From contig NZ_CP146614.1 of NCBI RefSeq assembly GCF_037094685.1, positions 6,448,001 to 6,512,000 on the forward strand: a stretch of DNA of 64,000 nt, in the 5' to 3' direction. This stretch comes from Massilia sp. METH4. Lineage in GTDB: Bacteria > Pseudomonadota > Gammaproteobacteria > Burkholderiales > Burkholderiaceae_D. Both the position numbers and the translations under genes were made by a program. A model generated the notes under the pieces. The model saw only the letters and a program-made list of their open reading frames with translations, had not been told where the DNA came from and did not search any database. Below are positions 26,802-44,801 of this stretch, piece after piece (position 1 is the stretch's first letter; every line of letters begins with the position of its first letter).

Positions 26802-28976
26802 CTACTTCGGCAGGGCCAGCGTGGTGCGCGAGGTGATGGCGTCGGAGGCGCCGCCGAGGGTGAACTCGTAGGTGCCGGGGGTGCGTTGCCAGTCGCGCGT
26901 CCTGGCGCTCCACACGCCGAGGATGCGCGGGTCGACGGTCACGCTGACGGTCTTGCGCTCGCCCGGTTGCAGGGCCACCTTGTCCCAGCCGGCGAGGCGG
27001 CGCGGGGCTTCCCAGCCGGCGGCCTTGGCAGTCGAACCGGCGGGGCCGACGTAGACCTGCGGCACGGCTTGCCCGGCGCGCTGGCCGGTGTTCGCCACGG
27101 TGAAGGTCAGCACGACCTTGCCGCCATCGTTGCGCGCTTTCAGGTCGCCGTATTCGTATGTGGTGTACGACAACCCGTGCCCGAACGCGAACAGGGGCTT
27201 CTTGCCGGTCTTTTCGAACCACTTGTAGCCGACGGCCGCGCCCTCGATGTTGTAGTCGGTGCTGTAGCGCCCTTCACGGTCGTTCGGGTTGCCGTCGATC
27301 TTCGGCCGCGGCAGCTGCGCTTCCGAGGCGGGGAAGGTGGCGGCCAGGCGGCCGGAGGGGTTCACCTCGCCCGTCAGCAGCCGCGCGATCGCCTCGCCGC
27401 CGGCGGAGCCGGGGAACCAGGCGGCCAGCACGGCGCTCACATTGTTAAGCCAGGGCATGGTGACGGGGTTGCCCGTCTCCAGCACGACGACCGTGCGCTT
27501 GTTGGCGCCCGCCACGGCGGCGATCAGCGCGTCCTGGTTGTCCGGCAGGGACATCGACGGCGCATCCACGCTCTCGGCCGCCCACTGCGTGGCGAACACG
27601 ATGGCAAGATCGGAAGAAGCGGCCGCTCGCGCAGCCGCAGCGGCATCCTTGCCGTCGACGTAGGTCACGCGCGCTTTCGTGCGCGCCTGCAGCGCCTTCA
27701 TCGGCGAGGACGGCAGCCACACGATCGGCCCCGGGAAGGTCTTCGGTCCCTCGCCCTTCACGGCGCTGCCGCCGTGCGGGTGCACCTGGGCGGCGCCGCC
27801 GCCCGAGATCACGGCCTTGTCGGCATGCCCGCCGATGATCACGATGGACTTCACGTCGGCGGCGAGCGGCAGCACGTTGCCTTCGTTCTTCAGCAGCACG
27901 CTGCCCTCTTCCGCCACCTGGCGCGTTACCTTCGCGTGCGCGGCGAAGTCGATCTTCTCGGGCTCCACCTTCGGCTGCGGCGCATCCATCAGGCCGTTCG
28001 CGTACATGGCGCGCAGGATGCGGCGCGCCATGTCGTCCAGGCGCTCTTTCGGCACGTGGCCGTTGTCCACGGCTTCCTTCAGCGCCGGGCCGAAGTACAT
28101 CGACTTGTCGAACGGCCAGCCAGATTGCTGGTCCAGGCCCCCGTTGGCCGCCTGCGTGGTCGAGTGCGTGGCGCCCCAGTCGGACATCACGAAGCCCTTG
28201 TAGCCCCAGTCCTTCTTCAGCACCTGGTTCAGCAGCCAGTCGCTCTCGCACGCGTACACGCCGTTGACGAGGTTGTACGAGCACATCACCGACCCGGGAT
28301 CACCCCGCTCGATCGCGATACGCATCGCCAGCAGGTCGGACATCTGCCCGGCCGCCTCGTCGATCTTCACGTCGATCGTGTTGCGGTTCGTTTCCTGGTC
28401 GTTGAACGCGAAGTGCTTGATCGTGCCGACGATATGGTTCGACTGGTTGCCGCGGATCTGCTCACCGGTGATGACGCCGGCCAGCAGCGGATCCTCGCCC
28501 GCATACTCGAAATTGCGGCCGTTGCGCGGATCGCGGTGCAGGTTCACGGCGCCGCCCAGGATCACGTTGTGGCCGGACAGGCGCGCCTCGCGACCGATCA
28601 TCGCGCCCGCCTCGTACGCCAGCTTCGTGTTCCAGCTGGAGGCCGTGGCCAGCCCCGCCGGCAGCGCCGTGCGCTCGCGCGGCGCCGGCGACGGCTGCGT
28701 GGCCACGCCCAGGCCCGCATCGGTCTGCCACTGCGGCGGGATGTTCAGCCGGGGAATACCGGGCACATAGCCTGCCGTGTACGGTATCGCCTCCTTCGGC
28801 GGCTTCACGCCCTGGAACTCGGCACCGAAATAGCCGAACACGAGGAGCAGCTTTTCCGCCTGCGTCATCTGCGCCACGGTGTCCCGGGCGCGCTGGTCCG
28901 GATCGGGCGCGGCGTGCGCAGTGCTTGCAAAGGCCGCCGCCAGGGCGACCGCCACTACTTTCTTCATCAATGCCAT
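26802..28976 (-). CDS. GH3 beta-glucosidase (xyloglucan locus)
   Basis: A 724-aa periplasmic GH3 enzyme (signal MALMKKVVAVALAAAFASTAHA). The TIM-like barrel carries KHFAFNDQETNR and GFVMSDWGATHS with Asp266 as the expected nucleophile. The alpha/beta sandwich (VLLKNEGNVLPLAADVKSIVIIG) and the C-terminal fibronectin-III-like domain (FTVANTGQRAGQAVPQVYVG) follow in standard order. It would remove beta-glucosyl units exposed after the alpha-xylosidase acts. The start overlaps the GH31 stop (TAATG at 28978-28974), so it is coupled. A beta-xylosidase activity cannot be excluded from sequence. Confidence 0.92.
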   Translation of the reverse strand: MALMKKVVAVALAAAFASTAHAAPDPDQRARDTVAQMTQAEKLLLVFGYFGAEFQGVKPPKEAIPYTAGYVPGIPRLNIPPQWQTDAGLGVATQPSPAPRERTALPAGLATASSWNTKLAYEAGAMIGREARLSGHNVILGGAVNLHRDPRNGRNFEYAGEDPLLAGVITGEQIRGNQSNHIVGTIKHFAFNDQETNRNTIDVKIDEAAGQMSDLLAMRIAIERGDPGSVMCSYNLVNGVYACESDWLLNQVLKKDWGYKGFVMSDWGATHSTTQAANGGLDQQSGWPFDKSMYFGPALKEAVDNGHVPKERLDDMARRILRAMYANGLMDAPQPKVEPEKIDFAAHAKVTRQVAEEGSVLLKNEGNVLPLAADVKSIVIIGGHADKAVISGGGAAQVHPHGGSAVKGEGPKTFPGPIVWLPSSPMKALQARTKARVTYVDGKDAAAAARAAASSDLAIVFATQWAAESVDAPSMSLPDNQDALIAAVAGANKRTVVVLETGNPVTMPWLNNVSAVLAAWFPGSAGGEAIARLLTGEVNPSGRLAATFPASEAQLPRPKIDGNPNDREGRYSTDYNIEGAAVGYKWFEKTGKKPLFAFGHGLSYTTYEYGDLKARNDGGKVVLTFTVANTGQRAGQAVPQVYVGPAGSTAKAAGWEAPRRLAGWDKVALQPGERKTVSVTVDPRILGVWSARTRDWQRTPGTYEFTLGGASDAITSRTTLALPK

Positions 28977-31855
28977 TACAGTTTCACCGTCACTGGTTTG
29001 CCTTCATAAACGACTTCCTTGTCGGAAGCATCGAACGTCTCGGAGCTCGAGACGCCTGGCTTCACGAAGTGCACGCGGAACGTGCGTTTCGCGAGCATGC
29101 CCTGGTAGCCGTCGCCGGAGCGCTGGCCGATCGTGAGCGTGCCAGCCTTCTCATTCCAGGTCAACGGAATACGCGAGTACTTGCCGCGCTGGTAGTCCTC
29201 GGTCACGCCATCGTCCTCGTAGAAGCTGAACTGGCCGTTCGCGCCCGTGTACACCTTCAACGTGATCGGCGCATCCGGCTTCTCGTCCACGTACTGCGTC
29301 ACGGGACCCATCGGCACGATCGAGCCGGCCTTCACGAACAGCGGCATGCGCGTTTCCGGCGCCGCCGCCGTCACGGTACGGCCGCCCTGCAAGCGTTCGC
29401 CCGTGTAGTAGTCGTACCACTGCGCACCCTTCGGCAGGTAGACCTTGCGCTCGCGGCCGCCGTACTCGTACACCGGCGCGACGAGGAAGGCATGGCCGAA
29501 CAGGTATTCATCCTTCACGTCCTTCGAACCCGGATCGTTCGGGAAGTCCATCACCAGGCCGCGCATGATCGAGCCTTCGTCGAAGTACGTGCTCGACGCG
29601 GTCGCGTAGATATAGGGCATCAGGCGATAGCGCAGCTTCAGGTACCACACCATGGAATCGCGCATCGGCGAGCCTTCCGGCGAGATCAGGTGGATCTCGC
29701 GCTTCACGACTTCGCCGTGCGAGCGGAACAGCGGCGTGAACGAGCCGAACTGCCACCAGCGCAGGTTCAGCTCGCGCCATTCCTTCAGGTCTTCTTCCTT
29801 GACCTGCGCGCCGCCGATGCCGCGGTTTTCCTGCGCCGAGCCCAGCTCGCCGCTCTGGAAGCGGGTTTCCTGCGCATAGCCGCCGATATCATGCGTCCAG
29901 TTCGGAATGCCGGACATGGTGGAGCCCACGCCCGCCGAGATCTGGTCATACAGGTTGTTCCAGCGGCCCACCGTGTCGCCGCTCCAGATCGCCACGTAGT
30001 TGCGCTGCACGCCGGCAAAGCCGGAACGGGACAGGATGAATTGCCGTTTATTCGGCTGGTCGCGTTTCAGGCCGTCGTACAGGGCCTGCGTCTGCAGCAG
30101 GCTGTAGGAGTTGAACGTGATCTCGCCGGGGCCGTAGATCGTGGGCCCGATCAGCTGCTTGAAGTCTTCCAGGCGGCTGTTCGACAGCACGTCCGGCTCC
30201 GTATTGTCCAGCCACCACGCATCGAAGCCCAGGTCGACCAGCTTGGTCTTCATCTGGCGGTAGTAGATGTCGCGCGCTTCCTTGGCGTACGGCGAATAGT
30301 GGCTGTTCTTGTAGCCCGGGCCCACCCAGTCCAGTGCGCCATCCTCGACGTTCTTGGTCCACATGTGGCCCTTGGCCTTCAGTTCCTGGTAGTTCTCCGT
30401 GTTCTCGTAGAACTTGCCCCAGACGGACAGCATGATCCGGGCATTCATCCTGTGCACTTCATCGACCATGCCCTTCGGGTTCGGGAAACGCTTGGGGTCC
30501 CAGTCGTGCGAGCCCCAGCCGTTCTCGGGCCAGTAGAACCAGTCCTGCACGATGTTGTCGAGCGGCCAGCCGTTCTGGCGGTAGGTCTTCACCGTGTCGA
30601 GCAACTGGTCCTGCGTCTCGTAGCGCTGGCGCGACTGCCAGAAGCCATAGGCCCACTTCGGCATCAGCGGCTGGGCGCCCGTCAGCACGCGGTAGCCGCC
30701 GATCACATTGTCGATACTGGTGCCGCGGATCACGTAGTAGTTCAGGCCTTCGGCGATCTCGGACGAGAATTGCAGCGAATGCCGCTCCGGTTTCGGCAGC
30801 GGGTTGTTGTGCGCCACGTAGATCATGCCGCCTTCCGGCTTCCACTCGAGCTTGAAGTCCACCGGCTTGTTGGCGGCAAAATCCACCTCGAAATTGTGGT
30901 ACCACGGGTTCCAGCCCTGGCGCCACACATCCATCACCTGCTTGCCGTCGATCGTGAGCGTGGCGTAATCGGATGAGTACAGCTTCATCTTGTGAACGCC
31001 CGGCTTGTCGGAGGCGAGCTTGCCTTCCCACACGACCTTCACATCCTTCAGGTCCTTCAGCGGCTTCAGTTCCTTCGGCCAGAACTCGGCCACGTCCTTC
31101 AGGTACTGGTAGTTGATCTTCTCTTCGCGGCGCTCCAGCGCCAGCTTGCCGCCGATGTAGTAGCGGGCCGTCAGCGCGCCTTCCTTGCCTTGCGCGTCCG
31201 TCAGCTTCAGGTCGCGGTTGATCGCGCCGTAGGGGCGCGGGTCGCCGAAGCGGGTGATGCCGTTGTTATCCCACAGGATGCCGTAGTTCTTGTCCGACAC
31301 CACGAGGGGAATGGCGATATCCATATTGTGCTGCAGCAGGTCGACATCCTCGCCATTCAGGTTGACCTGGTTGTTCTGGTGCTGGCCGGTGCCGTAGAAC
31401 GCATCCTTCGTGCCGAAGTTGAAGCCCTGCTTCACGGCGAGGTAAGGCTTGCCGCCCACGGTCACCGGCTGCATGTCCTCGGCATCCTGCTTCAGGAACA
31501 CGGCGCCGCCCTTGTCGGCGAACTGCACGCGGCCATCCTTCAGCGACACGTTGGCCACCAGCTTTTTCGTGGCCAGGCTCAAGCTGTCGCCCGTCTTCTT
31601 CACGTCGAACGTGCAGGCGCACGGCTTGGCGATCGTCATCAGGGAAGGCGTCAATTCCTTGCCCGCCTGGTCCACCTTCACCACGTGAACGATATTGTCG
31701 GCCATGACCTGCAGCCGGATCTCCCTGGCTGCGCCGCTATCGGGCGCGATCGTCACGCCGGTGGCGGTCTGCTGGAACGTGCCGGCCCAGGCCGGCGCAC
31801 CGGCGGCCACCATCAGGCAAGCCAGGCTGATTGTCTTCAACTGCATTTTCATCAT
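28976..31855 (-). CDS. GH31 alpha-xylosidase with PA14-like insert
   Basis: A 959-aa periplasmic enzyme (signal MMKMQLKTISLACLMVAAGAPAWA). The order is N-terminal beta-sandwich, PA14-like insert at ~225-350 (KPGVHKMKLYSSDYATLTIDGKQV), and a (beta/alpha)8 barrel with WWLDNTEPD (Asp550, nucleophile) and IWSGDTVGRW (Asp627, acid/base). The PA14 insert and WWLD-x-x-E-P-D motif are characteristic of xyloglucan alpha-xylosidases such as Cellvibrio Xyl31A. It removes alpha-1,6-xylose from the non-reducing end of xyloglucan oligosaccharides. The start ATGATG overlaps the GH35 stop (ATGA) and the gene runs into GH3. Confidence 0.94.
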   Translation of the reverse strand: MMKMQLKTISLACLMVAAGAPAWAGTFQQTATGVTIAPDSGAAREIRLQVMADNIVHVVKVDQAGKELTPSLMTIAKPCACTFDVKKTGDSLSLATKKLVANVSLKDGRVQFADKGGAVFLKQDAEDMQPVTVGGKPYLAVKQGFNFGTKDAFYGTGQHQNNQVNLNGEDVDLLQHNMDIAIPLVVSDKNYGILWDNNGITRFGDPRPYGAINRDLKLTDAQGKEGALTARYYIGGKLALERREEKINYQYLKDVAEFWPKELKPLKDLKDVKVVWEGKLASDKPGVHKMKLYSSDYATLTIDGKQVMDVWRQGWNPWYHNFEVDFAANKPVDFKLEWKPEGGMIYVAHNNPLPKPERHSLQFSSEIAEGLNYYVIRGTSIDNVIGGYRVLTGAQPLMPKWAYGFWQSRQRYETQDQLLDTVKTYRQNGWPLDNIVQDWFYWPENGWGSHDWDPKRFPNPKGMVDEVHRMNARIMLSVWGKFYENTENYQELKAKGHMWTKNVEDGALDWVGPGYKNSHYSPYAKEARDIYYRQMKTKLVDLGFDAWWLDNTEPDVLSNSRLEDFKQLIGPTIYGPGEITFNSYSLLQTQALYDGLKRDQPNKRQFILSRSGFAGVQRNYVAIWSGDTVGRWNNLYDQISAGVGSTMSGIPNWTHDIGGYAQETRFQSGELGSAQENRGIGGAQVKEEDLKEWRELNLRWWQFGSFTPLFRSHGEVVKREIHLISPEGSPMRDSMVWYLKLRYRLMPYIYATASSTYFDEGSIMRGLVMDFPNDPGSKDVKDEYLFGHAFLVAPVYEYGGRERKVYLPKGAQWYDYYTGERLQGGRTVTAAAPETRMPLFVKAGSIVPMGPVTQYVDEKPDAPITLKVYTGANGQFSFYEDDGVTEDYQRGKYSRIPLTWNEKAGTLTIGQRSGDGYQGMLAKRTFRVHFVKPGVSSSETFDASDKEVVYEGKPVTVKL

Positions 31856-33522
31856 TGGTAAGTCCCCAGTTTGATCTTGAGTACCGTCGGCGTCGCGCCG
31901 AAATTGAGGCCGTAGTCGATCTGGTCGCCATTCCACACGCGCTCCATGACCCAATTGCCCTTGCCGTCGTATTGCCCTTCCTCGACCCGCGCATACATGG
32001 ACGACTTGCCGGCATTGCGCCCGGCAGGGTCGAACTTGATGCGCGCGTGCTGGGCGACGACGATGAATTCGTTGTCGCCGACCTGCGCGACGGCCAGGCC
32101 GCCGTTCGGCTTGTCCGTGCCTTCGATCGGGTCGTTCTTCGCCATCGAATCCCCGAACTGGCGCTGGCGGAAGCTGACAGTCGCCTTCCAGCCATCGAGC
32201 GCGATATCCTGCGGCTTGCGGTCATCGTGTTCGAACACGCCGCGCGTGCGGCCTTCGAAGCCCCACCTGGCCCATTCGCGCATCATCGGGCGGAACGCGC
32301 CGTACACCTTGCCGAACGGCTCGGTCATCGTCTTGTCCCACGCCTTCGCACCCAGCGGGTAGTTGCTGAATTCGAAGTAATCGATGCCGAACGGCGCGAA
32401 GCCGATGCCGCCCTGCCCGAACACGGCATAGGCCACGCGCGCGAAGTCTTCCGAATTGCCGATCTCCGGCACGAACAGCGGATTGTCCTTCGTGTGGAAC
32501 TGCTTCAGGGTGGCGGCGATCTTGTCGGATTCGTGCAGGTAGATATCCGGCCCTGCCACGTCGATGTGCGGGGCGGCCGCTTCATAAATGCCGAGCACGT
32601 CGTAGGTCGGACCGCCGCTGGCGAAATTGCCGCGCCACGGTGCCATCGGCTCCACCGGGTCGCGCAGCGCGTTGTTGACGAACATCGGCAGGTCGTAGAC
32701 CGCGCGGCCGGCTTTCGCGATCTCCTCGATGTAGCTCGCCACCGCCCAAGTGTGGAAATACTGGTCCGCGTACTCGCCGTACACTTCCTTCCACGTGCCG
32801 CCGGCCTTTCCCAGGTTATTGGCCGAACCGCGGGGCGGCTTCTGCTTCGCCACCACGGCGGCCGGCACCGGCGAGTTGAACGCCTGTTGCGCGGCCGGGC
32901 CATGGTCGCGCACCAGGCCGTAGGTGCCCACCTCGTTCTGCACCTGCACCATGATCACGGTCTGGCGGTCGCCATCGATCCGCTTCAGGTGCTTCATGAA
33001 CTCGACGAAGGCGCGCCGGTCGGCTTTCAGGGTCTCCCCGCCGAAGGGCGAATGGCTGTAGCTGCTCTTGCCCTTCTCGTCGACCATGCGCGGGAAGCGC
33101 TTGTTGTCGAACTTGACCCATTCGGGCAGGTAGGCGGGCGCCGTGTTCTTCCAGGTGCCGAACCACAGCAGCACCAGGCGCACGTCCTTCTCGCGGGCTT
33201 GCTTGACCAGGGTGTCGACGAAACTGAAGTCGAACTTTCCTTCCACCGGCTCGACCTGCTCCCAGGCGACGGGGATCTCGAGGGTATTGGCCTGGGCATC
33301 GGCGATGGCGGCCCATACCTCGGGCAGCGCCTTCGGGTAGTTGCTGGAGTTGTGCGCCTGGCCACCCAGGATCAGGTAAGGCGCGCCATCCACGAGCAAT
33401 GCATGGCGGCCATCCTTGGTGACGACGCGCGGCAGCTCGGCGGCCATGGCCGCCGACACCATCATCGCGCAGGCACCGGCCAGCAAACCCGCCTTGAACA
33501 TCGGCTTGGCGAATGCTTTCAT
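31852..33522 (-). CDS. GH35 beta-galactosidase, Bgl35A-like
   Basis: A 556-aa enzyme with signal sequence MKAFAKPMFKAGLLAGACAMMVSAAMA and RBS AGGGAG. The barrel shows ILGGQAHNSSNYP, QVQNEVG (Glu197, acid/base) and LFVPEIGNSEDF (Glu353, nucleophile). This shorter GH35 type with a DUF5597-like C-terminus is the one found in xyloglucan loci (Cellvibrio Bgl35A), where it removes beta-1,2-galactose from L side chains. It is quite unlike the other two GH35 proteins in this window. It lies 10 bases after the receptor gene and overlaps GH31 by ATGA. Confidence 0.92.
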   Translation of the reverse strand: MKAFAKPMFKAGLLAGACAMMVSAAMAAELPRVVTKDGRHALLVDGAPYLILGGQAHNSSNYPKALPEVWAAIADAQANTLEIPVAWEQVEPVEGKFDFSFVDTLVKQAREKDVRLVLLWFGTWKNTAPAYLPEWVKFDNKRFPRMVDEKGKSSYSHSPFGGETLKADRRAFVEFMKHLKRIDGDRQTVIMVQVQNEVGTYGLVRDHGPAAQQAFNSPVPAAVVAKQKPPRGSANNLGKAGGTWKEVYGEYADQYFHTWAVASYIEEIAKAGRAVYDLPMFVNNALRDPVEPMAPWRGNFASGGPTYDVLGIYEAAAPHIDVAGPDIYLHESDKIAATLKQFHTKDNPLFVPEIGNSEDFARVAYAVFGQGGIGFAPFGIDYFEFSNYPLGAKAWDKTMTEPFGKVYGAFRPMMREWARWGFEGRTRGVFEHDDRKPQDIALDGWKATVSFRQRQFGDSMAKNDPIEGTDKPNGGLAVAQVGDNEFIVVAQHARIKFDPAGRNAGKSSMYARVEEGQYDGKGNWVMERVWNGDQIDYGLNFGATPTVLKIKLGTYQ

Positions 33523-33532
33523 GGGCTCCCTG

Positions 33533-36500
33533 TCAGAACGAATAGTTGAGGCGCGCCGAATAGCGCGGACCGGAGACGAACCAGGCACGGCCCATCATGC
33601 CGATCCCCTGCTGCATCAGCTGCTTGTACTTGGAATCGGTCAGGTTGGTACCGTCGACGAGGATCTGCGTGCGCTCGTTGATCTGGTAGGAGATCGATGC
33701 GTCGAGCTGGCCGTAGTCGTCCACCCACGTCGGCAGGGCCCAGCCGATATTGGTGGCGCCGCGGGTCGGGCTGTTCGGGTTGGTATCCGTGCCGTTGTCG
33801 CCGCGCGTGCCGTTCACGTTCACGCCCTGCAGGTTCTTCGAGCGCCAGCTCCACGCCGCGCGCGCCGACCACTTGCCGTAGTCGTACAGGATCGCCAGGT
33901 TGTACGAGTTCTTCGACAGGTATTGCAGCGGCAGGTTGCCGAACGACTGGCCGTTGGTGTCGCAGCCGTTCTGGTTCAGGTTGATGTTGGCGGCCGTATT
34001 GCCGACCGCGCAGTAGGCGGTGAACTTGTCGTTGTACAGCGTGGTGCTGCTGCTCACATACGTGTAGTTCGCCTGTACGCCCAGGCCCGCCCATGCACCC
34101 GGCAGCTTGTCGAAGTACTGCTGGTAGGCGATTTCGTAGCCGGTGGCACGGCCGCGCGCCCCATTGACGGGTGCCGTCACGCTGAACGTGTACGGCTGGC
34201 CGTTCACGTCCGCCAGCTCGTAGCCGTAGGTCTGGTTGACGATCACGTCTTTCAGGCGCTTGTGGAATATCGCCATGGTGATCGAGCTGGACTTGCCGAA
34301 GTACCATTCACCGGTCAGGTCGACCTGGTCGGACTTGATGGGCCGCAGCATCGGGTTGCCCTTGCCTTCGCCCGTCTGCGACACGTTGTTGACGATCAGG
34401 CTGGGGCCCTCGCCCGTCGTGGTGGCGCCCTGCGTGAGCGTGGTGTAGCCCTGCAGCTGCGAGAAGTCCGGCCGCGAGATCGCCTTGGCGAGCGCGAAGC
34501 GGAATTGCAGGTCGGGGCGCGCCTGCAGGCGCAGGTTCAGGCTCGGCAGCACGTTGCTGTACGAATTGTCGTAGGCGCGCGCCGCTTCATACGCCGGCAT
34601 GTCCGGGATGGTCACGCTGCCCGGCTTGCCGTTCAGGTACATCCTGTCCCGGCTGTCGTTCTTGAACGTCGTGTAGCCGTGCGCGTTCATGTCCGTCTTC
34701 ACGTAGCGCACGCCGATGTTGCCGTCGACCGGGTACTTCAGGTCGTCGAAGCCGAAGCGCAGCTGCGTGTAGAAGGCCTTGGTCTTTTCCGACTGCTCGT
34801 TGATGCCGGCCGGATTGCCGCCGAACTTGGCCGGGTTCCAGGCCGCGCAATTGCCGTCGACGGGCGGGTTTTCGCGGCACAGGATCTGGAAGAATTCGTG
34901 CAGCTGCGCATAGCTTTGCGGGTAGCCGGTCGCCAGCGACACGCCAGGGAACACGACGGCCGGCACGCTGGCCTTGCCGTTGAAGAAGTTCGGGAACGTG
35001 CCCAGGATCGTCGGCGCGGCGAAGCGCGGGTCCGACATATAGGCCAGGTTGCCGTTCAGGTGGCCCATCCAGGAAGCCGTGATCGCATCCCAGTTGTAGT
35101 CCGGGTTGGAATTCTCGTTGATCGAGTCGCGCTTGGTGAAGCGCACGCCGAAGCGCAGGTCGCGCAGCACCGGGTGGTCGAACGTATACTTCGCGTCGCC
35201 CTTCCACGCCTTCGATTCCGCTTCGCTGCGGTCCATGTGTTCCTGGGTGAAGTTCCAGTAGTACTTGCTCGGGTCGGCCAGGTGGGCGCGGTCGGCATCC
35301 GTAAAGGTCAGGCGTGGCAGGCGACCGGTCAGGTCCAGCGTTTCGCTCGGCATCTTCACCGCGGTGGCCACGGTGGAATCGAAGCCGTTCGACTTCGCCT
35401 TGATGCGCTGCAGGTCGGACGTGAAGGTCCAGCGGTCGTTGGCGCGCCATTCCAGGTTCCAGGAGACGTCGGTCGTGTCCGACTTGCGGTTGGCGATCCG
35501 GGTATCGGCGCCGAAGTCGATGCCGTTCTCGGTCGGGGCGGCCAGCGTGCCGGTCAGGAACTGGCCGTTGGCGCCGTAGGTGGAGTTCGGGCTTGCCGTG
35601 ATCTTGTACGCATCGGCGGAAGAGAAGATTGCATTCTCATCCCAATCCATCTGGTATTTGGACTTGAAGAAGGTGACGTGCGAACGCAGGTTGGCATCCT
35701 TCTTCCATTGCAGCGCGCCGTACATGCCCTGGCGCTCGCGGTTGAAGTTCAGGGTGCGCCATTGCGCGCCCTTCGGAATCCATACGGTCCGGCCGGCTAC
35801 CACGTTATCGCGCGGGTAGTATGGCTCGACCTGGAACGCATCGGTGCGGGTATTGCTCTCCGAGTGGGCGAGGTCGACCAGCACGCCCACCTCGCCGATG
35901 CCGGTCTTCCAGCGGTTCGACAGCAGGATCGAGGCCGACGGCGACCACTTGCCGCGCTTGAGCTCCGAGTAGGCGGTGGATGCCGACAGCGACACCTTCG
36001 GCCCCTTGAAGTCGAACGGCAGCGCGGTGCGCAGGTTGACCAGGCCGCCGATGGCGCCTTCGATCTGCTCGGCGGACGGGTTCTTGTAGATGTCCAGGCC
36101 GGCCATCAGCTCGGGCGGCACGTCCTCGAAGTTCAGCGAGCGGCCGCCATTGGCCGAAAACGAATCGCGGCCATTGAGCTCGGAGCGCACGTAGGACAGG
36201 CCGCGGATCGATACACCGGAACCCTCGACGGAATAGTGTTCCGGGTCGCCGCGCGACATCGTGCGGTCGATCGTCACGCCGACCACGCGCTGCAGCACCT
36301 CGGTCACGGACTTGTCGGGCAGCTTGCCGATGTCGGCGGCCACGATGGAATCGACGATCTCGTCCGAATTCTGCTTGATCTTCTGCGCATTCTCGAGCGA
36401 GGCGCGCTGGCCCGTCACGACCACGGTCGCGGTGGCGCCGGGATTGCCGGCATCGGCCGTCTGCGCGTGGGCCGCGCCGGCCAGGAAGGCGATCTGCGCC

Positions 36501-36544
36501 GATGCCAGCGCCATCGCGGTAAGCTTAAACTGTTTCACCTGCAT
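33533..36544 (-). CDS. TonB-dependent receptor, xyloglucan oligosaccharide importer (predicted)
   Basis: A 1003-aa outer-membrane receptor with RBS AAGGAG and signal peptide MQVKQFKLTAMALASAQIAF ending AHA-Q. Plug signatures are VVVTGQRASLENAQKIKQ and AADIGKLPDKSVTEVLQRVVG; the barrel ends ARLNYSF with terminal Phe. It sits within the minus-strand run, 64 bases after GH95 and 10 bases before GH35, the place occupied by the receptor in Cellvibrio and Xanthomonas xyloglucan loci. There is no SusD partner, as usual in Proteobacteria. Substrate assignment rests on context only. Confidence 0.9.
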   Translation of the reverse strand: MQVKQFKLTAMALASAQIAFLAGAAHAQTADAGNPGATATVVVTGQRASLENAQKIKQNSDEIVDSIVAADIGKLPDKSVTEVLQRVVGVTIDRTMSRGDPEHYSVEGSGVSIRGLSYVRSELNGRDSFSANGGRSLNFEDVPPELMAGLDIYKNPSAEQIEGAIGGLVNLRTALPFDFKGPKVSLSASTAYSELKRGKWSPSASILLSNRWKTGIGEVGVLVDLAHSESNTRTDAFQVEPYYPRDNVVAGRTVWIPKGAQWRTLNFNRERQGMYGALQWKKDANLRSHVTFFKSKYQMDWDENAIFSSADAYKITASPNSTYGANGQFLTGTLAAPTENGIDFGADTRIANRKSDTTDVSWNLEWRANDRWTFTSDLQRIKAKSNGFDSTVATAVKMPSETLDLTGRLPRLTFTDADRAHLADPSKYYWNFTQEHMDRSEAESKAWKGDAKYTFDHPVLRDLRFGVRFTKRDSINENSNPDYNWDAITASWMGHLNGNLAYMSDPRFAAPTILGTFPNFFNGKASVPAVVFPGVSLATGYPQSYAQLHEFFQILCRENPPVDGNCAAWNPAKFGGNPAGINEQSEKTKAFYTQLRFGFDDLKYPVDGNIGVRYVKTDMNAHGYTTFKNDSRDRMYLNGKPGSVTIPDMPAYEAARAYDNSYSNVLPSLNLRLQARPDLQFRFALAKAISRPDFSQLQGYTTLTQGATTTGEGPSLIVNNVSQTGEGKGNPMLRPIKSDQVDLTGEWYFGKSSSITMAIFHKRLKDVIVNQTYGYELADVNGQPYTFSVTAPVNGARGRATGYEIAYQQYFDKLPGAWAGLGVQANYTYVSSSTTLYNDKFTAYCAVGNTAANINLNQNGCDTNGQSFGNLPLQYLSKNSYNLAILYDYGKWSARAAWSWRSKNLQGVNVNGTRGDNGTDTNPNSPTRGATNIGWALPTWVDDYGQLDASISYQINERTQILVDGTNLTDSKYKQLMQQGIGMMGRAWFVSGPRYSARLNYSF

Positions 36545-36608: not shown

Positions 36609-38969
36609 TCAGCGCAGTTGTGCGCCGATCACCCTCGCCTCACCCAGCTTCAGTTTCAGAATCACGGTCTTCGCATCCGCGCGCACGCGCACGGTGCCGG
36701 CCCCGTTGCCCGGTTTCGCCCTGACGGTCGCCGACGTCACTTTCCCGTCGCGCCATGTCACGTCCACTTCGTATCCTCCGCGTGCCCGCAGGCCCGATAC
36801 CGAGCCGCTCTTCCACGCCGCCGGCAACGCCGGCAGCAGGTGCAGCACGCCGTCGTGCGATTGCAGCAGCATTTCGCAGATCGCCGCCGTGGTGCCGAAA
36901 TTGCCGTCGATCTGGAATGGCGGGTGCGCGTCCAGCAGGTTCGGGTACATGCCGCCGGCCGTGTTCTCTTCGGTTCCCGGCTTGTGCTCTTGCGTGCGGG
37001 CGCCGGGCGTGGCGATCACGCCGCGCAGCATCGCGTGGGCCCTGTCGCCGTCGCCCAGGCGCGCCCAGAACGCGGCCTTCCATGCCATCGACCAGCCGGT
37101 GCCGGCATCGCCGCGCGCGGCCAGCGACACGCGCGCGGCCTGCGCCAGCGCCGGCGTGCGACCCGGGGTGATCTGCCGGCCGGGGAACACCCCGAACAGG
37201 TGCGACACGTGGCGGTGATTGTCGTTCGGCGTGTCGAGGATCGGGTCCTGCTTTTCCTCCATCCATTCGAGCAACTGGCCCCAGCTGCCGATCTTCGGCG
37301 CGGCCAGGCGGTCGCGCGCGGCGGCCACCTGCCCCGCGAAGGCCACGTCCGTCTTCAGCTCGGCCGCCGCTTCCACGGTGTTCTGGAACAGGTCCCACAC
37401 GATCTGCTGGTCGTACGACACGCCGTCCTCGACGGGGCCGTGTTCCGGCGACCAGCCGTTCGGCGCCACGAGCCTTCCCGGTCCGCCGCCGCGGTCAGGG
37501 AGTTCCTTCAGGTAGTCAAGCCAGAACTGGCTCACCTCCTTCAGCAGCGGATACGCAACCTTTTCCAGGAATGCCTTGTCGCGTGTGAACGCGTAGTGCT
37601 CCCAGAAGTGCTGCGCATACCAGGCGTTGGCCGTCTTGTTCCACTTCCACTGCATGTAGCCGAACGGGTTCGTTTCGGTGCGCACCGTCCAGCCGCGCAC
37701 CGGCTTGCCGTCCTTGCGCAGGAAGGTCTCCACGACCTGCCCATCCTCGGCATCGCGCGACGGGTTGGCCGCGCTCTCGGCCACCAGGCGGCGGTACGAG
37801 GGCACCATGGCTTCCACGAAGCCGAACAGGGGCTCGGTTAGCTCCGACAGGTTCGCCACCTCGGCCGGCCAGTAATTCATCTGGATGTTGATATTCGTGT
37901 GGTAGTCGGCATTCCACGGCGGCGTGAGGCTGTTGTTCCACAGGCCTTGCAGGTTGGCCGGCAGCGGCCCGCGCGAGCTGCCGATCAGCAGGTAGCGGCC
38001 GTACTGGAACACTTGCGCTTCCAGTTCCGGGTCGTTGCCCCGGCGCGTGTATTCGGCCAGGCGGCGGTCCGTCGTCAGCGCGCGGCGCTCCACCGCAGCC
38101 GTGCCCACGTCGAGCTCCAGGCGGCCGAACAGGCGCTTGAAATCGTTTTCGTGCTCGCCCTGCAAATCGGACCATGGGCGTGCCGCCGCGCGGCTCACTT
38201 GTTCGGTCACGCGCGGGAGCGGGTGCGGGCCCTGGAAGTTCGCCGCGCCATTACGCGCGTAGCTGGTACCGGCGCCCAGCACGAGCGTCACGGCGTCGGC
38301 CTGCTCGAAGCGGACCGTGTCGCCTTCCATCACCAGCTTGCCGCCCTCGTTCATGACTTGCACCTGGGCCGCGTAATCCATCTGGTTCGACGTCAGCGGC
38401 TGGTGCGCCGGCGTCCACTGGTTGCCCCGCTCGCGCGGCACCACGAAGCCGGCCAGCGAACCGGTGGCGTGGATGCGGTTGCCGAAGGCGTTGATGTGCG
38501 CGCCGTGCTGGTCGGTCAGGCGCACCACGCCCGTGTGGGCTCCCGGCCGGTCGGCCGTCAGGCGCACCACGATCACGCCGGCCGGATGGCTGGCGATCGT
38601 TTCGCGGCGGTAGCGCACCCCGTTGTGCACATAGGTGACCGTGTGCAGCGCGCGCGCCAGGTCCAGCGTGCGCGCATAGCCCGTGGCGGCGGCATGGCCC
38701 GGCAGGTCGATGTACAGGTCGCCGAACGGCTGGAAGGCGCCCATCGACTGCGCGTCGCCCGTCCACAGCGTGATGTCGTTGAATTGCACATGCTCGCGCG
38801 CCGGCTGGCCGAACACCATGGCGCCGATGCGGCCATTCCCGACGGGCAGCGCCTCGCGCTCCCAGCCGTCGGCATTGTCCGTGGCCGGGCGGTCGTAGCG
38901 CAGCGTGAGGTCGGGCGCCGCGTGGGCCGCGGCCGTGAAGCACAGCGTGGCGAAAAGGACCCGCATCAT
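36609..38969 (-). CDS. GH95 alpha-L-fucosidase (xyloglucan locus)
   Basis: A 786-aa periplasmic GH95 with signal [18 protein letters not shown]-terminal [17 protein letters not shown] and [15 protein letters not shown] are followed by catalytic-region segments [41 protein letters not shown] (Glu, acid) and [13 protein letters not shown]. It is expected to remove alpha-1,2-fucose from F side chains before GH35 acts on galactose. The start ATGATG overlaps the GH74-fusion stop (ATGA at 38969-38966). Its sequence differs clearly from the GH95 at 7227, so the two are not recent duplicates. Confidence 0.93.
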
Positions 38970-41900
38970 GGCGCCATCTCCCCGTACACGATGCCGCGCC
39001 CGGCGGTACTCATGTAGACGCGGCCGACCACGTTCATGTCGCCCACGATGAAGCGCCCGTCGCCCGGCCCGCCATACTGGTGCGCGTCGTCGTTGATGCG
39101 CACCCAGTTCGCGCCCTCGTCGGTGGAGCGCCAGATGCCGCGCAAGCCGTCGATCGTGCCCCAGAGGTAGACGGCCGGATAGCCGCCTTCCCGTTCGGCC
39201 TTGCCGAAACCGACGGCACCGGCGTACGTCGCGTCCCTGATCGCGGCGAACGTGGCGCCGCCATTCGTGGAACGGGCAAGGCCGCCGTTCCTCAGGGCCA
39301 CCCACACGTCGCCCGAGCGGCCGGGCACGGCCCGCACGACATCCGAGCCCCCCTCCGGCAGCCGCGCCGTCACGCTGAAGGTGCGGCCGGCGTCGGCGCT
39401 GGCCAGGAAGGCGCCGTCCTGGTAGGCATAGAAGCGGTTCCCGTCGACCGGGTCCGCGACGGGGCGCGCGCCATCCAGGCCGGTCACGGTGGTCCAGGTA
39501 TCGCCATCGTCCGTGGATCGGAAAGTCACGCGCGACCTTTCGGGACTATGCAGCAGCACCTTGCCGTCCGCCGACAGCGCGAGCTGTCCCTTGGTGCCGT
39601 TCATACCCCGCGCCAGGCGCCACTTCGCACCCCCATGGCGCGTGACGTAGATCGACTTTCCCACCCGCGCCAGTACCTGCGGCTGCATGCCGGCGTACGC
39701 CAGGCCGAACGTGGTACCCATCTGCGGCTCGTGGATGCGGCCATAGTTCCGCGGGTCAGTGTGGATGAAACCGTCGTAGTCGCCGATCGTGGACACCAGC
39801 GGCGCGCCGGCGCGGCTGACGAGGCCCAGCGGCACCGTTTCCTCCAGGCCCTTGACGTCGAAGCGCCAGACGGTGGGAACCGCGTCGAGGTTGGACGTCT
39901 TGAACACGCCGTTGCCTGACGTGACCCAGGCGGCCCGCGGGTCGAAGGGATCGAAGGCGATCGTGCTGGCCCAATGGATGGCATGGCCCTTCACCCAGGG
40001 CACGCCGGCATGGTCCATCCGGAAGCCGCGCGCGACGAGGTCGGTCCAGCTCGCGCCGCCATCGGTGGACAGGTAGAAGCGGTCGCCCTTCGCGTCCCCC
40101 TTCTCGCCGCTTTGCCGCGCATACAGGCTGATGGTGGAAGCGAGCAGCCGGCGCGGATCGGCGCGGTCGACGCTGATGCCGGAGTAAGCGGCGCGCGGGC
40201 CCTTCGGCGTCACGTCCTGGCCGGCGCCGGAGGCGATGGCGTACTTGCGCACGGCGCCGCTGTCCATCTTTTCGTCGCCGCGCGGGTGCGGGCCGGCCCC
40301 GTTGGCGAAGGTCACGTACAGGTGGCCCAGGCCGTCGAGCGCGGCGCGCTGCGGCATCAGGCCGCCGGGCGTGGCATCCATGGGCTGGAACGTCCTGCCG
40401 CCGTCGTCGCTGCGAAACAGATTGGTGCCGGCGCGCGACACGCCGACGAACAGCCGCTCGCTCCTTCCACCCTTCACGCTGGCCGGATCGGGCAGCACGA
40501 AGGCGATGCCGGCGCCGTTCGGCGTGGCCGCCACGTCCAGCCCCCGCACGTGCTGCCACGTCGCACCGAAATCGTCGCTGCGGAACAGGCCATTGGCGCG
40601 CGTGCCCACGTACAGCACGTTGGAAGCGCCGGGATCGACGGCCAGCCGTTCGCCGTTGTTGCGGCCGGGGCCATTGCCGTGGGTCTTGAACTGCGCCGTC
40701 ACATCGGTGACGGCGAACGTCTTGCCGTAGTCGCGCGAGCGCAGGATCGCCGTGCGGCCGCCGTTGTGATACGCGATGCCTGCCAGCAGGTAGAGCCTGG
40801 CCGGGTCGCGCGGGTCGACCGCCAGCGAATCCACGCCGAGCAAGCCCGTCTGGTCCTCCGACACCCAGTCCAGCAGCGGCGTCCAGCGATCGCCCGTCCA
40901 CCTGTAGGCGCCGCCGACGTCCGTGCGGGCATATACCACGCCCTGCTCCGCCGTCGGGACCACGGCCGACACGAAGCCGCCGCCGCCGATCGCCACGCTG
41001 CCCCAGCGGTAGCCGGTCAGCAGCGGTTGCAGGATCGGGTCCATGGCCCGGGCCCAGATTTCGTAGCCGCGCGCGTTCGGGTGCAGCAGGTCGGGCATGA
41101 TGTCTTTCGACAGCGTGCCGTGCTCGTCGAGGAAGGCGCTGCCGATGTCGGCGAAGAACACGCGGCGATTGTCCGCAAACTGCGCGATGCGCCCGTTGAT
41201 CGCGTCGTTGATGCGGCGCGACTGGCTGTCCGCCGCGTCGCGCGGAAACACGCCCAGCAGCAGGATCTTCGCGTTCGGAAGGCGCTGTTGCAGTTCGTCG
41301 ATCACGCGCCGCAGGCCGGCGGCCGTGGTGGCCGGGTCTTCCTGCCGGCTGCCCGTGTTGTTGGTGCCCGCCATCAGCACCACCACCTTCGGGTCGATGC
41401 CGTCCACTTCGCCATGCCGGATGCGCCAGAGGATGTTTTCCGTGCGGTCGCCGCCAAAGCCCAGGTTGATCGGCTGGTAGCGGGCGTAGCGCCGGGCGAA
41501 TTCTTCCTTGCCCTCCTTCGCCCAGCCCTCGGTGATCGAGTCGCCGATGAACACGAGTTGCGGCAGTTTGCCGGCAACGCGACGCGCGGCGTTGTCTTTT
41601 ACCTTTTCCTCGTGGCGCGGCATCCACCAGTCGATCGCCCACGATTCGTTCAGCGGTTCGGGCGTGACGGAACGGGTGCGGTAGTCCGGGCACGCGGTAT
41701 TGGGCTGGCCGCTCTTCAGGATGCGCACGTTGGCCACGGCCACTTCGCCCTGCCCCGTCGCGTCGACTGAAAACGGTTTCATGACCGTTTCAAAAACATC
41801 GCCTTCGCGGTAGAAGCACTTCAATGCGATGGACACGCTCTTCCAGCCCTGCCCCGCCGCGGCCCGGCCGGGCAGCACGTAGGGCACCTTGCGTTCGCAG

Positions 41901-42307
41901 CCTTCGCCGCAATCGAGCCTGAAGTCGATGCCACCCTTGCCCAGGTCGCGAACGTTCAGGTCGAATGCCACGACACCCTTGTCGAGGTAGGGGCGCAGGT
42001 CGCGTGGCGTGCTCTCGAAGCGCAGGCTCGCGTACCAGGTATCGCGCCAGGCGAGCGTGAGCGCGTTGCGGCCCGCGACCTTGCCGGCCGTGCCGCGCAC
42101 GACGGCCTGCGGCTGATTTTCGGATTTGGGAACGACGGCGCTCGCGCCGGCCAGCGGCACGGCATTCTCCGGATCGGCCACCCGCACCTGCCAGCCGGCA
42201 CCCGGACGGTTCTTGAAGAGCGTGAGTGGGTCCGATGCGGCCGCACCGGCGGCTGCCGCGTGTGCGGAAGCGGCCGCCAGCAGAAGCAGCGGGAGGATAT
42301 GGCGCAT
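38966..42307 (-). CDS. Trimodular ExoP-like domain / SGNH esterase / GH74 endo-xyloglucanase
   Basis: A 1113-aa exported protein joining three domains. Signal peptide: [20 protein letters not shown]. Residues ~28-205 resemble the galactose-binding-like ExoP_C domain ([28 protein letters not shown]). Residues ~246-430 form an SGNH hydrolase: block [10 protein letters not shown] (Ser257), block [17 protein letters not shown], block III AGTNN, block V DLLHPN (Asp406, His409), so all catalytic residues are present. Residues ~435-1113 are a GH74 double propeller, opening [14 protein letters not shown] and [12 protein letters not shown] (Asp463, a likely catalytic Asp) with many S-x-D-x-G-x-x-W BNR repeats. 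It would deacetylate and cut xyloglucan. It overlaps GH95 (ATGA) and is preceded by a CAGAA repeat cluster. Confidence 0.92.
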
Positions 42308-42429: not shown

Positions 42430-43473
42430 TCAGCCTTGGACCGACACTCGGTATACGGTGGTTTGCCGGTAGACCTGCCCTGGCCGCAGGATCACGGCGG
42501 CCGCGCCCTTGCCGTTCAATTGATTGGGAAAGGCGCCCGCTTCCAGGCAAAAGCCGTCGTGCCGCGAATAGATCACGCCGTTCCGGCCGCGCACGCCGGT
42601 CAGGCCGTTGCCGCTGTAGAACTGCAGGCCCGCCTCCGTGGTGGCCACGTCCAGTTGCCGGCCGGAGCCGGGGTCGACCACCCGCGCCACATTGCGCAGC
42701 CGGCCGCGTTCGCGCGGGTCCGACGGCAGGCAGTAGCAGTGGTCGAAGCCGCCCGCCACGCGGATCTGCGGATCGGGCCAGCGCATGCGTGGGCCGATCG
42801 CGGCGGGCTGGCGAAAGTCGAACGGCGTGCCGGCCACCGCGGCGCGGCCGATCGGGATGCCCACGGCGTCGATCTCCAGGTAGTAGTCGGCATCGATGCG
42901 CAGCATGTGGTCGCCCACGTCGGCGCTGCCGCCATTCAGGTTGAAACACGGGTGCGAGGTGAGGTTGACCGGCGTGGGCGCGTCGCAGGTGGCCTGGTAT
43001 TCGATGGTCAGGCTGCCGTCGTCGTCCAGCTGGTAGAAGACCTGCACGGCCAGGGTGCCGGGAAAGCCGCCCTGCCCGTCCGGCGACACATAGGACAGCG
43101 CCAGCCCGCCGTGCGCCAGCTCGCCATCCCAGTGCGCCGCATGGAAGCCGGCATCGCCGCCGTGCAGGTGGTTGCCGCGGTCGTTGACGTCGGCCTGCAC
43201 CACGCGGCCATCGAGCTTGAAGCGGCCGCGCGCGATGCGGTTGGCCCAGCGGCCGAGGATGGCGCCGAACCAGGCATGACGGTGGTGTAGCAGGTATTCG
43301 TTTTCGGGGTAGCCGAGCAGGATGTCGGCCATGCGGCCGTACCGGTCGGGCGCCAGCCACGAGACGAGCGCGGCGCCGCGCTCGCTGATCGTCACCCGCA
43401 TGCCCCAGGCATTGGTCAGCGTGAAGCGCCGCGCCGTGGCGGCCGACACGGCCATTGGCGGCATGATGATCAT
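42430..43473 (-). CDS. galM: Aldose 1-epimerase (mutarotase)
   Basis: A 347-aa cytoplasmic enzyme interconverting alpha and beta anomers of aldoses. Motifs: YPENEYLLHHRHAWFGAILGRWANRIARGRF, GNHLHGG (catalytic His region), NLTSHPCFNLNG (second His) and GLQFYSGNGLTG, with CLEAGAFPNQLN holding the catalytic Glu. The ATG (43473) overlaps the xylR stop (ATGA), so the two are translationally coupled; M4 (43464) is a weaker alternative. In this setting it probably handles xylose, glucose or galactose released from xyloglucan. Confidence 0.92.
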   Translation of the reverse strand: MIIMPPMAVSAATARRFTLTNAWGMRVTISERGAALVSWLAPDRYGRMADILLGYPENEYLLHHRHAWFGAILGRWANRIARGRFKLDGRVVQADVNDRGNHLHGGDAGFHAAHWDGELAHGGLALSYVSPDGQGGFPGTLAVQVFYQLDDDGSLTIEYQATCDAPTPVNLTSHPCFNLNGGSADVGDHMLRIDADYYLEIDAVGIPIGRAAVAGTPFDFRQPAAIGPRMRWPDPQIRVAGGFDHCYCLPSDPRERGRLRNVARVVDPGSGRQLDVATTEAGLQFYSGNGLTGVRGRNGVIYSRHDGFCLEAGAFPNQLNGKGAAAVILRPGQVYRQTTVYRVSVQG

Positions 43474-44666
43474 TCCCGCACGTCGCCGGCGGCTTCGGCG
43501 CTCCGTTGTCGTTCCTGCCAGGCGCGCGGCGTGCACCCCAGTTCCCGCTTGAACACCGAGTGCATGTATTGGCTCGACGTGAAGCCGCAGCGGACGGCGA
43601 CGTCGGCCAGGTTACAGCCGCCGCGCGCCAGGTAGCCGGTGGCCGCTTCCAGCCGCAGGCGCAGGATCTCGTCGTGCACGCTGCGGCCCAGCTCCGCGCG
43701 GAAATGCGCTTCCAGCGACGAGCGCGAGATGCCCACGTACTGGGCCACCTGGTCGGTCTTGATGCCCTGGCACGCATACTGGCGGATGAAGTGGCGCGCG
43801 CGCATCACGTGCGGGTGCTTGCCCGCCTCGTGCTTGCTGGAGGCCAGCACGTTGATGCCGGCCGGCGGCACCAGGATGCGCGTATCGGGCAGGCGCACGC
43901 CGTGCAGCATCTGGTCCAGCAGGTGGGCCGCCGTGCGGCCCATTTCCTGGGCGCCCTGGATCACCGAACTCATCGGAATGCGCGTGAGCATGCGCGCCAG
44001 CGGGTCATTGTCGATGCCGATCACGGCCACCTGCTCCGGCACCTCGATGCCGGCCAGCGCGCACGCCTGCATCAGCTGGCGCGCCCGCGCATCGGTCACG
44101 GCAATGATGCCGACCGGCTTCGGCAGGCTCTGCAGCCAGGCGACCAGTTGCTCTACCGCCTCCGTCCAGTGCTGCGCACTGGTCGCGCGGCCCCGGTACA
44201 CCTCGGGTTGCAGCCTGTCGCGCAGCAGCAGCTTGCAATACGCCTTCTCGCGCTCCTGCGCCCAGCGGTTTTCCTGCGCCTCGGGCAGGCTGAAACAGGC
44301 GATGTGGCGCAGGCCGGCCTCGATCAGGTGATCGTAGGCCAGCTTGATGAGCTTGAAGTTATCGGTGGCCACATAGGGCACGGCGGCCGGATAGTCGGCC
44401 GGGTTCTGGTACGAACCGCCCACGGCAACCATCGGCACGCGCGTGGCAGCCAGCGCGCGCGCCACCATGGGATCGTCGAAGTCGGCAATGATGCCGTCGC
44501 CCTGCCAGCCGTCGATGCCGGCCAGGCGCAGCCGGAAATCCTCTTCCAGGAACAGGTCCCACGCCGTGCGGGTGCTGGCCAGGTAGGCGGCGATGCCGGT
44601 GATGACTTCGCGGTCGAAAATCTTGTTGGCGTTGAAAAGCAGCGCGATGCGATGCGTTCTCAGCAT
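43470..44666 (-). CDS. xylR: XylR-type xylose-responsive regulator (LacI-like sensor plus AraC DNA-binding domain)
   Basis: A 398-aa protein of the same length and order as E. coli XylR. Residues ~5-275 are a periplasmic-binding-protein-type sugar sensor (RIALLFNANKIFDREVITGIAAYL, VAVIGIDNDPLARMLTRIPMSSV). Residues ~290-395 are an AraC domain with two HTHs (GIKTDQVAQYVGISRSSLEAHF and NLADVAVRCGFTSSQYMHSVFKRELG). The start at 44666 follows GGGGAGA. It is coupled to galM and lies upstream of the whole xyloglucan run, so it is the likely activator responding to xylose. Classical xylA/xylB targets are not in the window. Confidence 0.93.
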   Translation of the reverse strand: MLRTHRIALLFNANKIFDREVITGIAAYLASTRTAWDLFLEEDFRLRLAGIDGWQGDGIIADFDDPMVARALAATRVPMVAVGGSYQNPADYPAAVPYVATDNFKLIKLAYDHLIEAGLRHIACFSLPEAQENRWAQEREKAYCKLLLRDRLQPEVYRGRATSAQHWTEAVEQLVAWLQSLPKPVGIIAVTDARARQLMQACALAGIEVPEQVAVIGIDNDPLARMLTRIPMSSVIQGAQEMGRTAAHLLDQMLHGVRLPDTRILVPPAGINVLASSKHEAGKHPHVMRARHFIRQYACQGIKTDQVAQYVGISRSSLEAHFRAELGRSVHDEILRLRLEAATGYLARGGCNLADVAVRCGFTSSQYMHSVFKRELGCTPRAWQERQRSAEAAGDVRE

Positions 44667-44801
44667 GTCGTTCGTCTCCCCATGCTCGTCTTGTGGCGCC
44701 ATTGTAATAGTTGAAAGAGCGCAACGGGCGATCGTATGGCCATTTTGCTCACGCCGGCAAGTGGCGGCAATTACGAATTTCAACGGGAGGCATTGCGATT
44801 C

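Follow-up and report, generated by a model that had tools for sequence, protein, structure and literature searches.

An esterase joined to a GH74 xyloglucanase in Pseudoduganella and Duganella, and its interruption at a conserved nine-adenine run in a Duganella clade

The fusion gene and its xyloglucan locus

The window (the whole stretch of 64,000 nucleotides analysed here) comes from the genome of the soil bacterium Massilia sp. METH4. It carries on one strand, in this order, genes for a XylR-like regulator, GalM, the fusion protein (third gene), a GH95 enzyme, a TonB-dependent receptor and GH35, GH31 and GH3 enzymes, with the following features:

43470..44783, minus strand: XylR-like regulator of the AraC family (XylR N-terminal domain and HTH; domain search)
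42430..43536, minus strand: aldose 1-epimerase, GalM (domain and similarity search)
38966..42307, minus strand: whole fusion gene, 1113 aa, with signal-like start, Exop_C, SGNH esterase and GH74
42227..42307, minus strand: putative signal peptide spanning roughly residues 1-27, a hydrophobic stretch judged by eye
41720..42193, minus strand: Exop_C galactose-binding-like module, residues 39-196 (Pfam PF18559)
41012..41665, minus strand: SGNH/GDSL hydrolase, residues 215-432 (Ser257, Gly286, Asn316, Asp406, His409)
40886..40894, minus strand: residues 472-474, the site matching the A9 run and frame change of Duganella relatives
38969..41011, minus strand: GH74 domain, residues 433-1113 (catalytic pair Asp463 and, presumably, Asp843)
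36609..38969, minus strand: GH95 enzyme, alpha-fucosidase type (domain search)
33533..36544, minus strand: TonB-dependent receptor, TonB-Xanth-Caul (domain and similarity search)
31852..33588, minus strand: GH35 beta-galactosidase (domain and similarity search)
28976..31954, minus strand: GH31 enzyme, alpha-xylosidase/alpha-glucosidase type (domain and similarity search)
26802..28976, minus strand: GH3 enzyme, beta-glucosidase type (similarity search)

The fusion gene runs from an ATG at 42307 to a stop at 38966 through 1113 codons without an internal stop, and the plus strand of 38966-42307 contains two stops. The single open frame described in the first-pass annotation is thus borne out, on the minus strand. 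The ATG of the GH95 gene overlaps the TGA of the fusion gene (ATGA). All the components by which we recognise a xyloglucan utilisation locus (GH74, GH31, GH35, GH95 and a TonB receptor) are present, the esterase being a domain of the GH74 protein, and the xyloglucan setting proposed earlier stands. Two other places in the same genome (C1:6843301-6844125 and 6041265-6043316) hold another GH74 (53%) and an SGNH relative (34%), the match to the latter crossing three TGA codons.

Each of the three modules proposed in the first-pass annotation was recovered. The ExoP_C-like N-terminus is matched by the Pfam profile Exop_C at residues 39-196 with 89.7 bits against a curated cut-off of 26.1, and a PDB sequence search with residues 28-206 gave no match at E values up to 1. 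The name of this module presumably derives from a marine glucan hydrolase; the papers listed by an open-access literature search on ExoP dealt with unrelated subjects. Residues 246-430, predicted to be an SGNH hydrolase, indeed fall within that superfamily, with Lipase_GDSL_2 (PF13472) matching residues 253-417 at 122.3 bits (cut-off 32.9) and with intact blocks around Ser257, Gly286, Asn316 and Asp406-x-x-His409. C-terminal of this domain Pfam reports BNR/Sortilin repeats, and residues 433-1108 align end to end with PDB entry 6p2l (603 bits), which confirms the full-length GH74 assignment; 6p2l is the GH74 enzyme of Niastella koreensis (PMC8245568, in part).

Asp463, already named in the first-pass annotation, lies within the YARTDVGG motif of the GH74 domain and aligns with the position at which PDB chains 2cn3 and 2cn2 differ by a D-to-A change in a YARAD motif. 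The second aspartate of the domain is Asp843 within GDYDGF, whose catalytic role we assume. Both the SGNH and the GH74 catalytic residues are kept in 36/36 aligned fused proteins (36 of 45 available fused clusters entered this alignment), so that the SGNH site claimed as complete is also conserved, and both GH74 aspartates are kept in 14/14 GH74-only rows as well. As a domain assignment, the three-module, putatively bifunctional layout was therefore correct. The GH74 endo-xyloglucanases 6p2l, 2cn3 and 7kn8 share with the window protein a full-length GH74 domain and both Asp positions, whereas in the window protein this domain is preceded by Exop_C and the esterase.

The best PDB match of residues 215-432 is PAF acetylhydrolase Ib alpha (104 bits); the weaker matches include 6njc, which is a sialate O-acetylesterase, and the acetyl esterase 5b5l. 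Among the 27 PDB matches of the SGNH domain at E values up to 0.01, none is named CE20 or xyloglucan esterase. Family CE20 was founded on XacXaeA, which deacetylates xyloglucan oligosaccharides and is encoded in a Xanthomonas xyloglucan locus with GH74, GH31, GH35, GH95, two TonB receptors and one separate esterase (PMC8245568, in part). As far as that part of the source goes, the Xanthomonas locus (XacXeg74, XacXaeA) resembles the window in uniting GH74, GH95, GH35, GH31, a TonB receptor and an SGNH-fold esterase; it differs in that its esterase is a separate CE20 protein whose SGNH core is split by an inserted domain, whereas the window has a PAF-acetylhydrolase-like SGNH domain joined to GH74. 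Membership of the window domain in CE20 is unsupported, given the lack of a CE20-named PDB match and a continuous SGNH core (253-417) free of an inserted domain. Judged by sequence, it may share the role of XacXaeA but not its family.

Spread and origin of the fusion

A protein search, of which we evaluated the best 120 of 861 matches, yielded at least 43 further full-length clusters with the same layout (1111-1186 aa, 52-86% identity) and one further, shorter fused cluster (P0045). Among the matches listed, fusions occur in Pseudoduganella, Duganella, Rugamonas and others. In the genus group of 74 genomes, 21 carry the fusion in frame and 14 carry it split at an A run; in the single-contig genome G300 (L184) the fusion gene has two breaks, neither of them at an A run, which may be an assembly error. 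The fusion layout is thus a lineage trait of Pseudoduganella/Duganella. A search of one open-access library listed no paper on this esterase-GH74 fusion.

The first two modules of the window protein also occur without GH74. These two-module Exop_C-SGNH esterases, mostly of about 410-460 aa, stand alone in Massilia, Pseudoduganella, Telluria, Undibacterium, Aquabacterium and others, with 46-67% identity across the 120 rows listed, which include shortened Duganella ORF1s and tandem SGNH chains. In source databases they are often labelled beta-glucosidase or 1,4-beta-D-glucan glucohydrolase, a naming that probably comes from the Exop_C module. Longer chains also exist: in three of three loci (L161:3969-6947; L162:4808-7753; L163:6007-8895) Exop_C-SGNH is joined to another SGNH domain plus an esterase domain of PF00756 in open frames of 963-993 aa.

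Seven of the 16 non-fused full esterase units among those listed lie near a GH74 gene (within 25 kb on the same contig). In UBA6018, esterase and GH74 are adjacent genes, the latter with its own signal-like start, and in Microbulbifer mangrovi (L071:985-4260) a GH3-Exop_C-SGNH chain is found 3.7 kb from a GH74 gene. Two genomes, G266 (L165) and G310 (L164), have kept the Exop_C-SGNH gene in the xyloglucan locus although the GH74 half is lost or internally deleted, and a search of both genomes at E 1e-30 found no GH74. From these fused, adjacent, nearby and retained cases across genomes it follows that the Exop_C-SGNH unit is an esterase module repeatedly placed in or beside xyloglucan-type genes. 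In 17 of the 36 loci re-examined (L003-L008, L010-L018, L026 and L032, from Massilia and near relatives), GH74 precedes GH35 and GH31 but lacks the esterase unit; 16 of the 17 have GH95. Two further observations concern gene structure: the GH95 match of UBA6018 (L021:13550-15842) consists of two overlapping consecutive pieces, which may reflect a frame break in this MAG, and Pseudoduganella namucuonensis (L009:7910-17945) has four GH74 genes in tandem.

That acetylated xyloglucan is the substrate of the esterase is a conclusion we infer from the locus context. Alternatively, the SGNH domain could act on other esters such as acetylated xylan, its joining to GH74 reflecting a shared timing of expression and not a shared substrate, a reading we consider unlikely while granting it appreciable weight. 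Among solved structures the domain is closest to PAF acetylhydrolases and not to a carbohydrate esterase, many bacteria have relatives of the unit that stand alone, and no GH74 is listed within 25 kb of 9 of the 16 listed non-fused units. However, the unit is fused to GH74, lies near it in the seven listed cases and in M. mangrovi, adjoins it in UBA6018 and is retained after GH74 loss in the otherwise complete xyloglucan locus of G310, which argues against a substrate other than xyloglucan.

A tree of the GH74 domain places the Pseudoduganella fusions, including that of the window, next to GH74-only proteins of Massilia, whereas those of Duganella sit on a separate branch with UBA6018. The tree was built from 70 of the 89 rows, after removal of 19 that were near-copies or outgroups, one A9 row among them; it favours two fusion origins (2 changes), and a single fusion clade has a p-AU of 0.13. 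A one-clade test on the esterase domain gave p 8.7e-9, but stand-alone rows nested inside the group make that test uninformative. Two origins of the fusion are thus favoured while a single origin is not rejected; a stand-alone Exop_C-SGNH esterase gene would have been joined to a GH74 gene, perhaps twice.

A frame change at nine adenines in a Duganella clade

For four genomes the family search listed both pieces of a divided fusion gene, with the junction at residues 473-481, and for G166, the fifth, the second piece alone; the DNA of these five genomes was then read. It revealed that one Duganella clade has the fusion gene divided by a shift to the -1 frame. The shift lies at a conserved A9 run that closely follows the first of the two catalytic Asp residues of GH74, in a context reading GAC-G(T/C)A-AAA-AAA-AAC. 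This slippery run is present at the frame change in 15/15 split genes (L113-L117, L159, L169-L176 and L025, from 15 Duganella-type genomes, one genome per species). The genus group contributes 14 of these genes, every one with nine As: the exact pattern matches 13, and in G294 the run is displaced by one base, still nine long and still -1. D. callida (L025) supplies the fifteenth gene. In the GH74 tree the A9 rows (14) form one clade with an SH-aLRT of 97.

The first open reading frame (ORF1) encodes the signal-like start, Exop_C, SGNH and about 40 first GH74 residues including the Asp463 motif, and ends at a TGA 12-13 nt past the A9 run; the remainder of GH74 follows in the -1 frame. The spacing across the site is 56 nt in the 13 pattern-matched split genes and 57 nt in four in-frame genes, so that a -1 change restores the spacing of the in-frame relatives. 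The window gene has no A run at 40886..40894, and A runs do not exceed seven anywhere in the 20 in-frame genes that were measured. At least 38 database clusters stop 17 residues past the start of the DVGGAYRW motif, and read-through as a lysine run was found in none of the proteins examined; a lysine run at the site is present in 0/45 fused clusters among the best 120 of 861 matches, obtained with a query about 55% identical to the A9 clade.

AAA makes up 19% of the Lys codons in these genes, and not one of the 17 Lys columns that the 15 genes share away from the site is AAA throughout. The 15 loci span 287,798 bases and contain 15 A/T runs of at least nine, one per gene and all at the split site. 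Whole genomes contain 25-42 exact nine-A runs on both strands together (eight genomes checked, that of the window among them). Nine As is the length at which many bacterial genomes select against slippage in genes (PMC1088944, in part).

One might regard the run as a phase-variation switch, in which replication slippage turns GH74 on or off between cells. Homopolymer runs are classical contingency loci, and a sample of one genome per species is blind to variation within a strain. Yet the 14 split genes and that of D. callida all have nine As and are all off frame, in G294 the run has moved by a base with length and frame preserved, at least 38 clusters end at the site, and a read-through form was found neither among the proteins examined nor in the 45 fused clusters among the best 120 of 861 matches. 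Since every genome seen is in the same state, we consider phase variation improbable.

It is quite improbable, too, that the GH74 half of the A9 clade is translated separately by stop-start coupling, or is dead. In 15/15 A9 genes the TGA of ORF1 overlaps an ATG of the GH74 frame (TGATGG), which would suit such coupling; a separate product would, however, have no signal peptide and no Asp463 motif, both of which lie in ORF1. The GH74 frame downstream has no stop in the 15 genes, and its median dN/dS of 0.19 (0.05-0.33, 105 pairs) is below the 0.29 and 0.31 of two in-frame groups, as is that of the esterase part (0.28 compared with 0.46 and 0.41), absolute values from these Nei-Gojobori counts being rough because of strong codon bias. 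The GH74 half is thus not dead, and its frame is under purifying selection. A search at E 1e-30 found no GH74 besides the split gene in 8 of 14 A9 genomes; each of the remaining 6 has between one and four additional GH74 genes, so that there the slip is not the sole route to GH74.

Finally, sequencing or assembly error is next to impossible as the source of either feature: homopolymers are error-prone and the G300 break may be such a case, but the window fusion, for which the first-pass annotation had raised a sequencing error merging two genes, recurs in the 43 or more other full-length clusters and in frame in 21/74 genus genomes, and 15 genomes, draft as well as single-contig (G304, G336), agree on nine As at the split.

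Programmed slippage or -1 frameshifting, by which one gene of the A9 clade would give rise to two secreted enzymes in a set ratio, is the reading we hold to be probable. A perfect 7-bp Watson-Crick hairpin lies 22-23 nt past the A9 run in 15/15 genes, with a compensated pair in G294, and the same hairpin is found in one of 20 in-frame genes (G340). Stimulators of -1 frameshifting usually lie 5-9 nt from the site and in a minority 12-15 nt (PMC5009743, in part). At 5-9 nt past the shift site the 15 A9 genes have no 3' structure, and a Shine-Dalgarno-like stimulator upstream of the run was not evident by eye. As a canonical frameshift stimulator the hairpin is thus rejected: it is too distant, 14 of the 15 copies are one sequence by descent, and G340 has it while being in frame. 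Its conservation may reflect descent together with constraint on the protein. Transcriptional slippage needs no 3' structure; the absence of a hairpin at near distance therefore makes us lean towards slippage of RNA polymerase rather than of the ribosome.

Proposed function and its meaning

Beyond the architecture, catalytic residues, locus and conservation, which this analysis establishes, we think it rather likely that the fusion begins the degradation of xyloglucan as a single exported enzyme of three modules, with an esterase-major, double-enzyme-minor variant in the A9 clade. Exop_C, a putative binding module, would probably help to hold the glycan while the SGNH domain strips O-acetyl groups and the GH74 domain cleaves the glucan backbone; export of the protein and cooperation of the two catalytic sites are presumed. 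The resulting oligosaccharides would enter through the TonB receptor and then be trimmed by the GH95, GH35, GH31 and GH3 enzymes. The window gene, as it lacks an A run, should make the double enzyme only. In the A9 clade most of the GH74 half would be readable only after a -1 change at the run, with the esterase alone as the probable major product and the esterase-xyloglucanase as the minor one. The conserved interruption suggests that this clade sets the amount of the GH74 half by a deliberate reading slip.

Precedents exist for the components of this arrangement. In dnaX of Thermus thermophilus, transcriptional slippage at nine As occurs at about 50% (PMC1088944, in part), and as in the A9 clade a run of nine As in coding sequence yields two products from one gene. 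The standard dnaX product is, according to the same portion of that source, the long one, whereas the long Duganella product needs the slip, as in Shigella mxiE. Another parallel is the alpha-fucosidase gene fucA of Saccharolobus solfataricus, which is expressed by a programmed -1 frameshift and gives more mRNA on hydrolysed xyloglucan (PMC8037382, in part). Like the A9 genes it encodes a glycoside hydrolase whose reading involves a -1 shift on a slippery sequence rich in A; in contrast to them it is archaeal, and its ORF1 is an 81-residue fragment where the Duganella ORF1 is a complete esterase. The papers listed by our open-access literature search for programmed frameshifts in glycoside hydrolases were on archaea, and the main text of a survey of prokaryotic frame transitions (PMC3711429) does not mention esterase.

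To the first-pass annotation the present analysis adds that the fusion is a lineage trait, that the esterase is common as a stand-alone protein, that an adjacent two-gene form exists and that a conserved A9 interruption divides the gene in one clade. The interruption also affects annotation, since gene callers record the esterase half alone, as in the at least 38 shortened clusters. Acetyl groups hinder enzymes that degrade plant cell walls, and a natural esterase-xyloglucanase chain offers a ready design for work on biomass. With fused, adjacent, split and esterase-only relatives in a single bacterial family, the value of joining the two activities becomes measurable. The A9 clade, in turn, allows recoding to be tested in a carbohydrate enzyme of bacteria; if the proposal is true, it would represent a bacterial polysaccharide-degrading enzyme in which the ratio of debranching to cutting is fixed by recoding.
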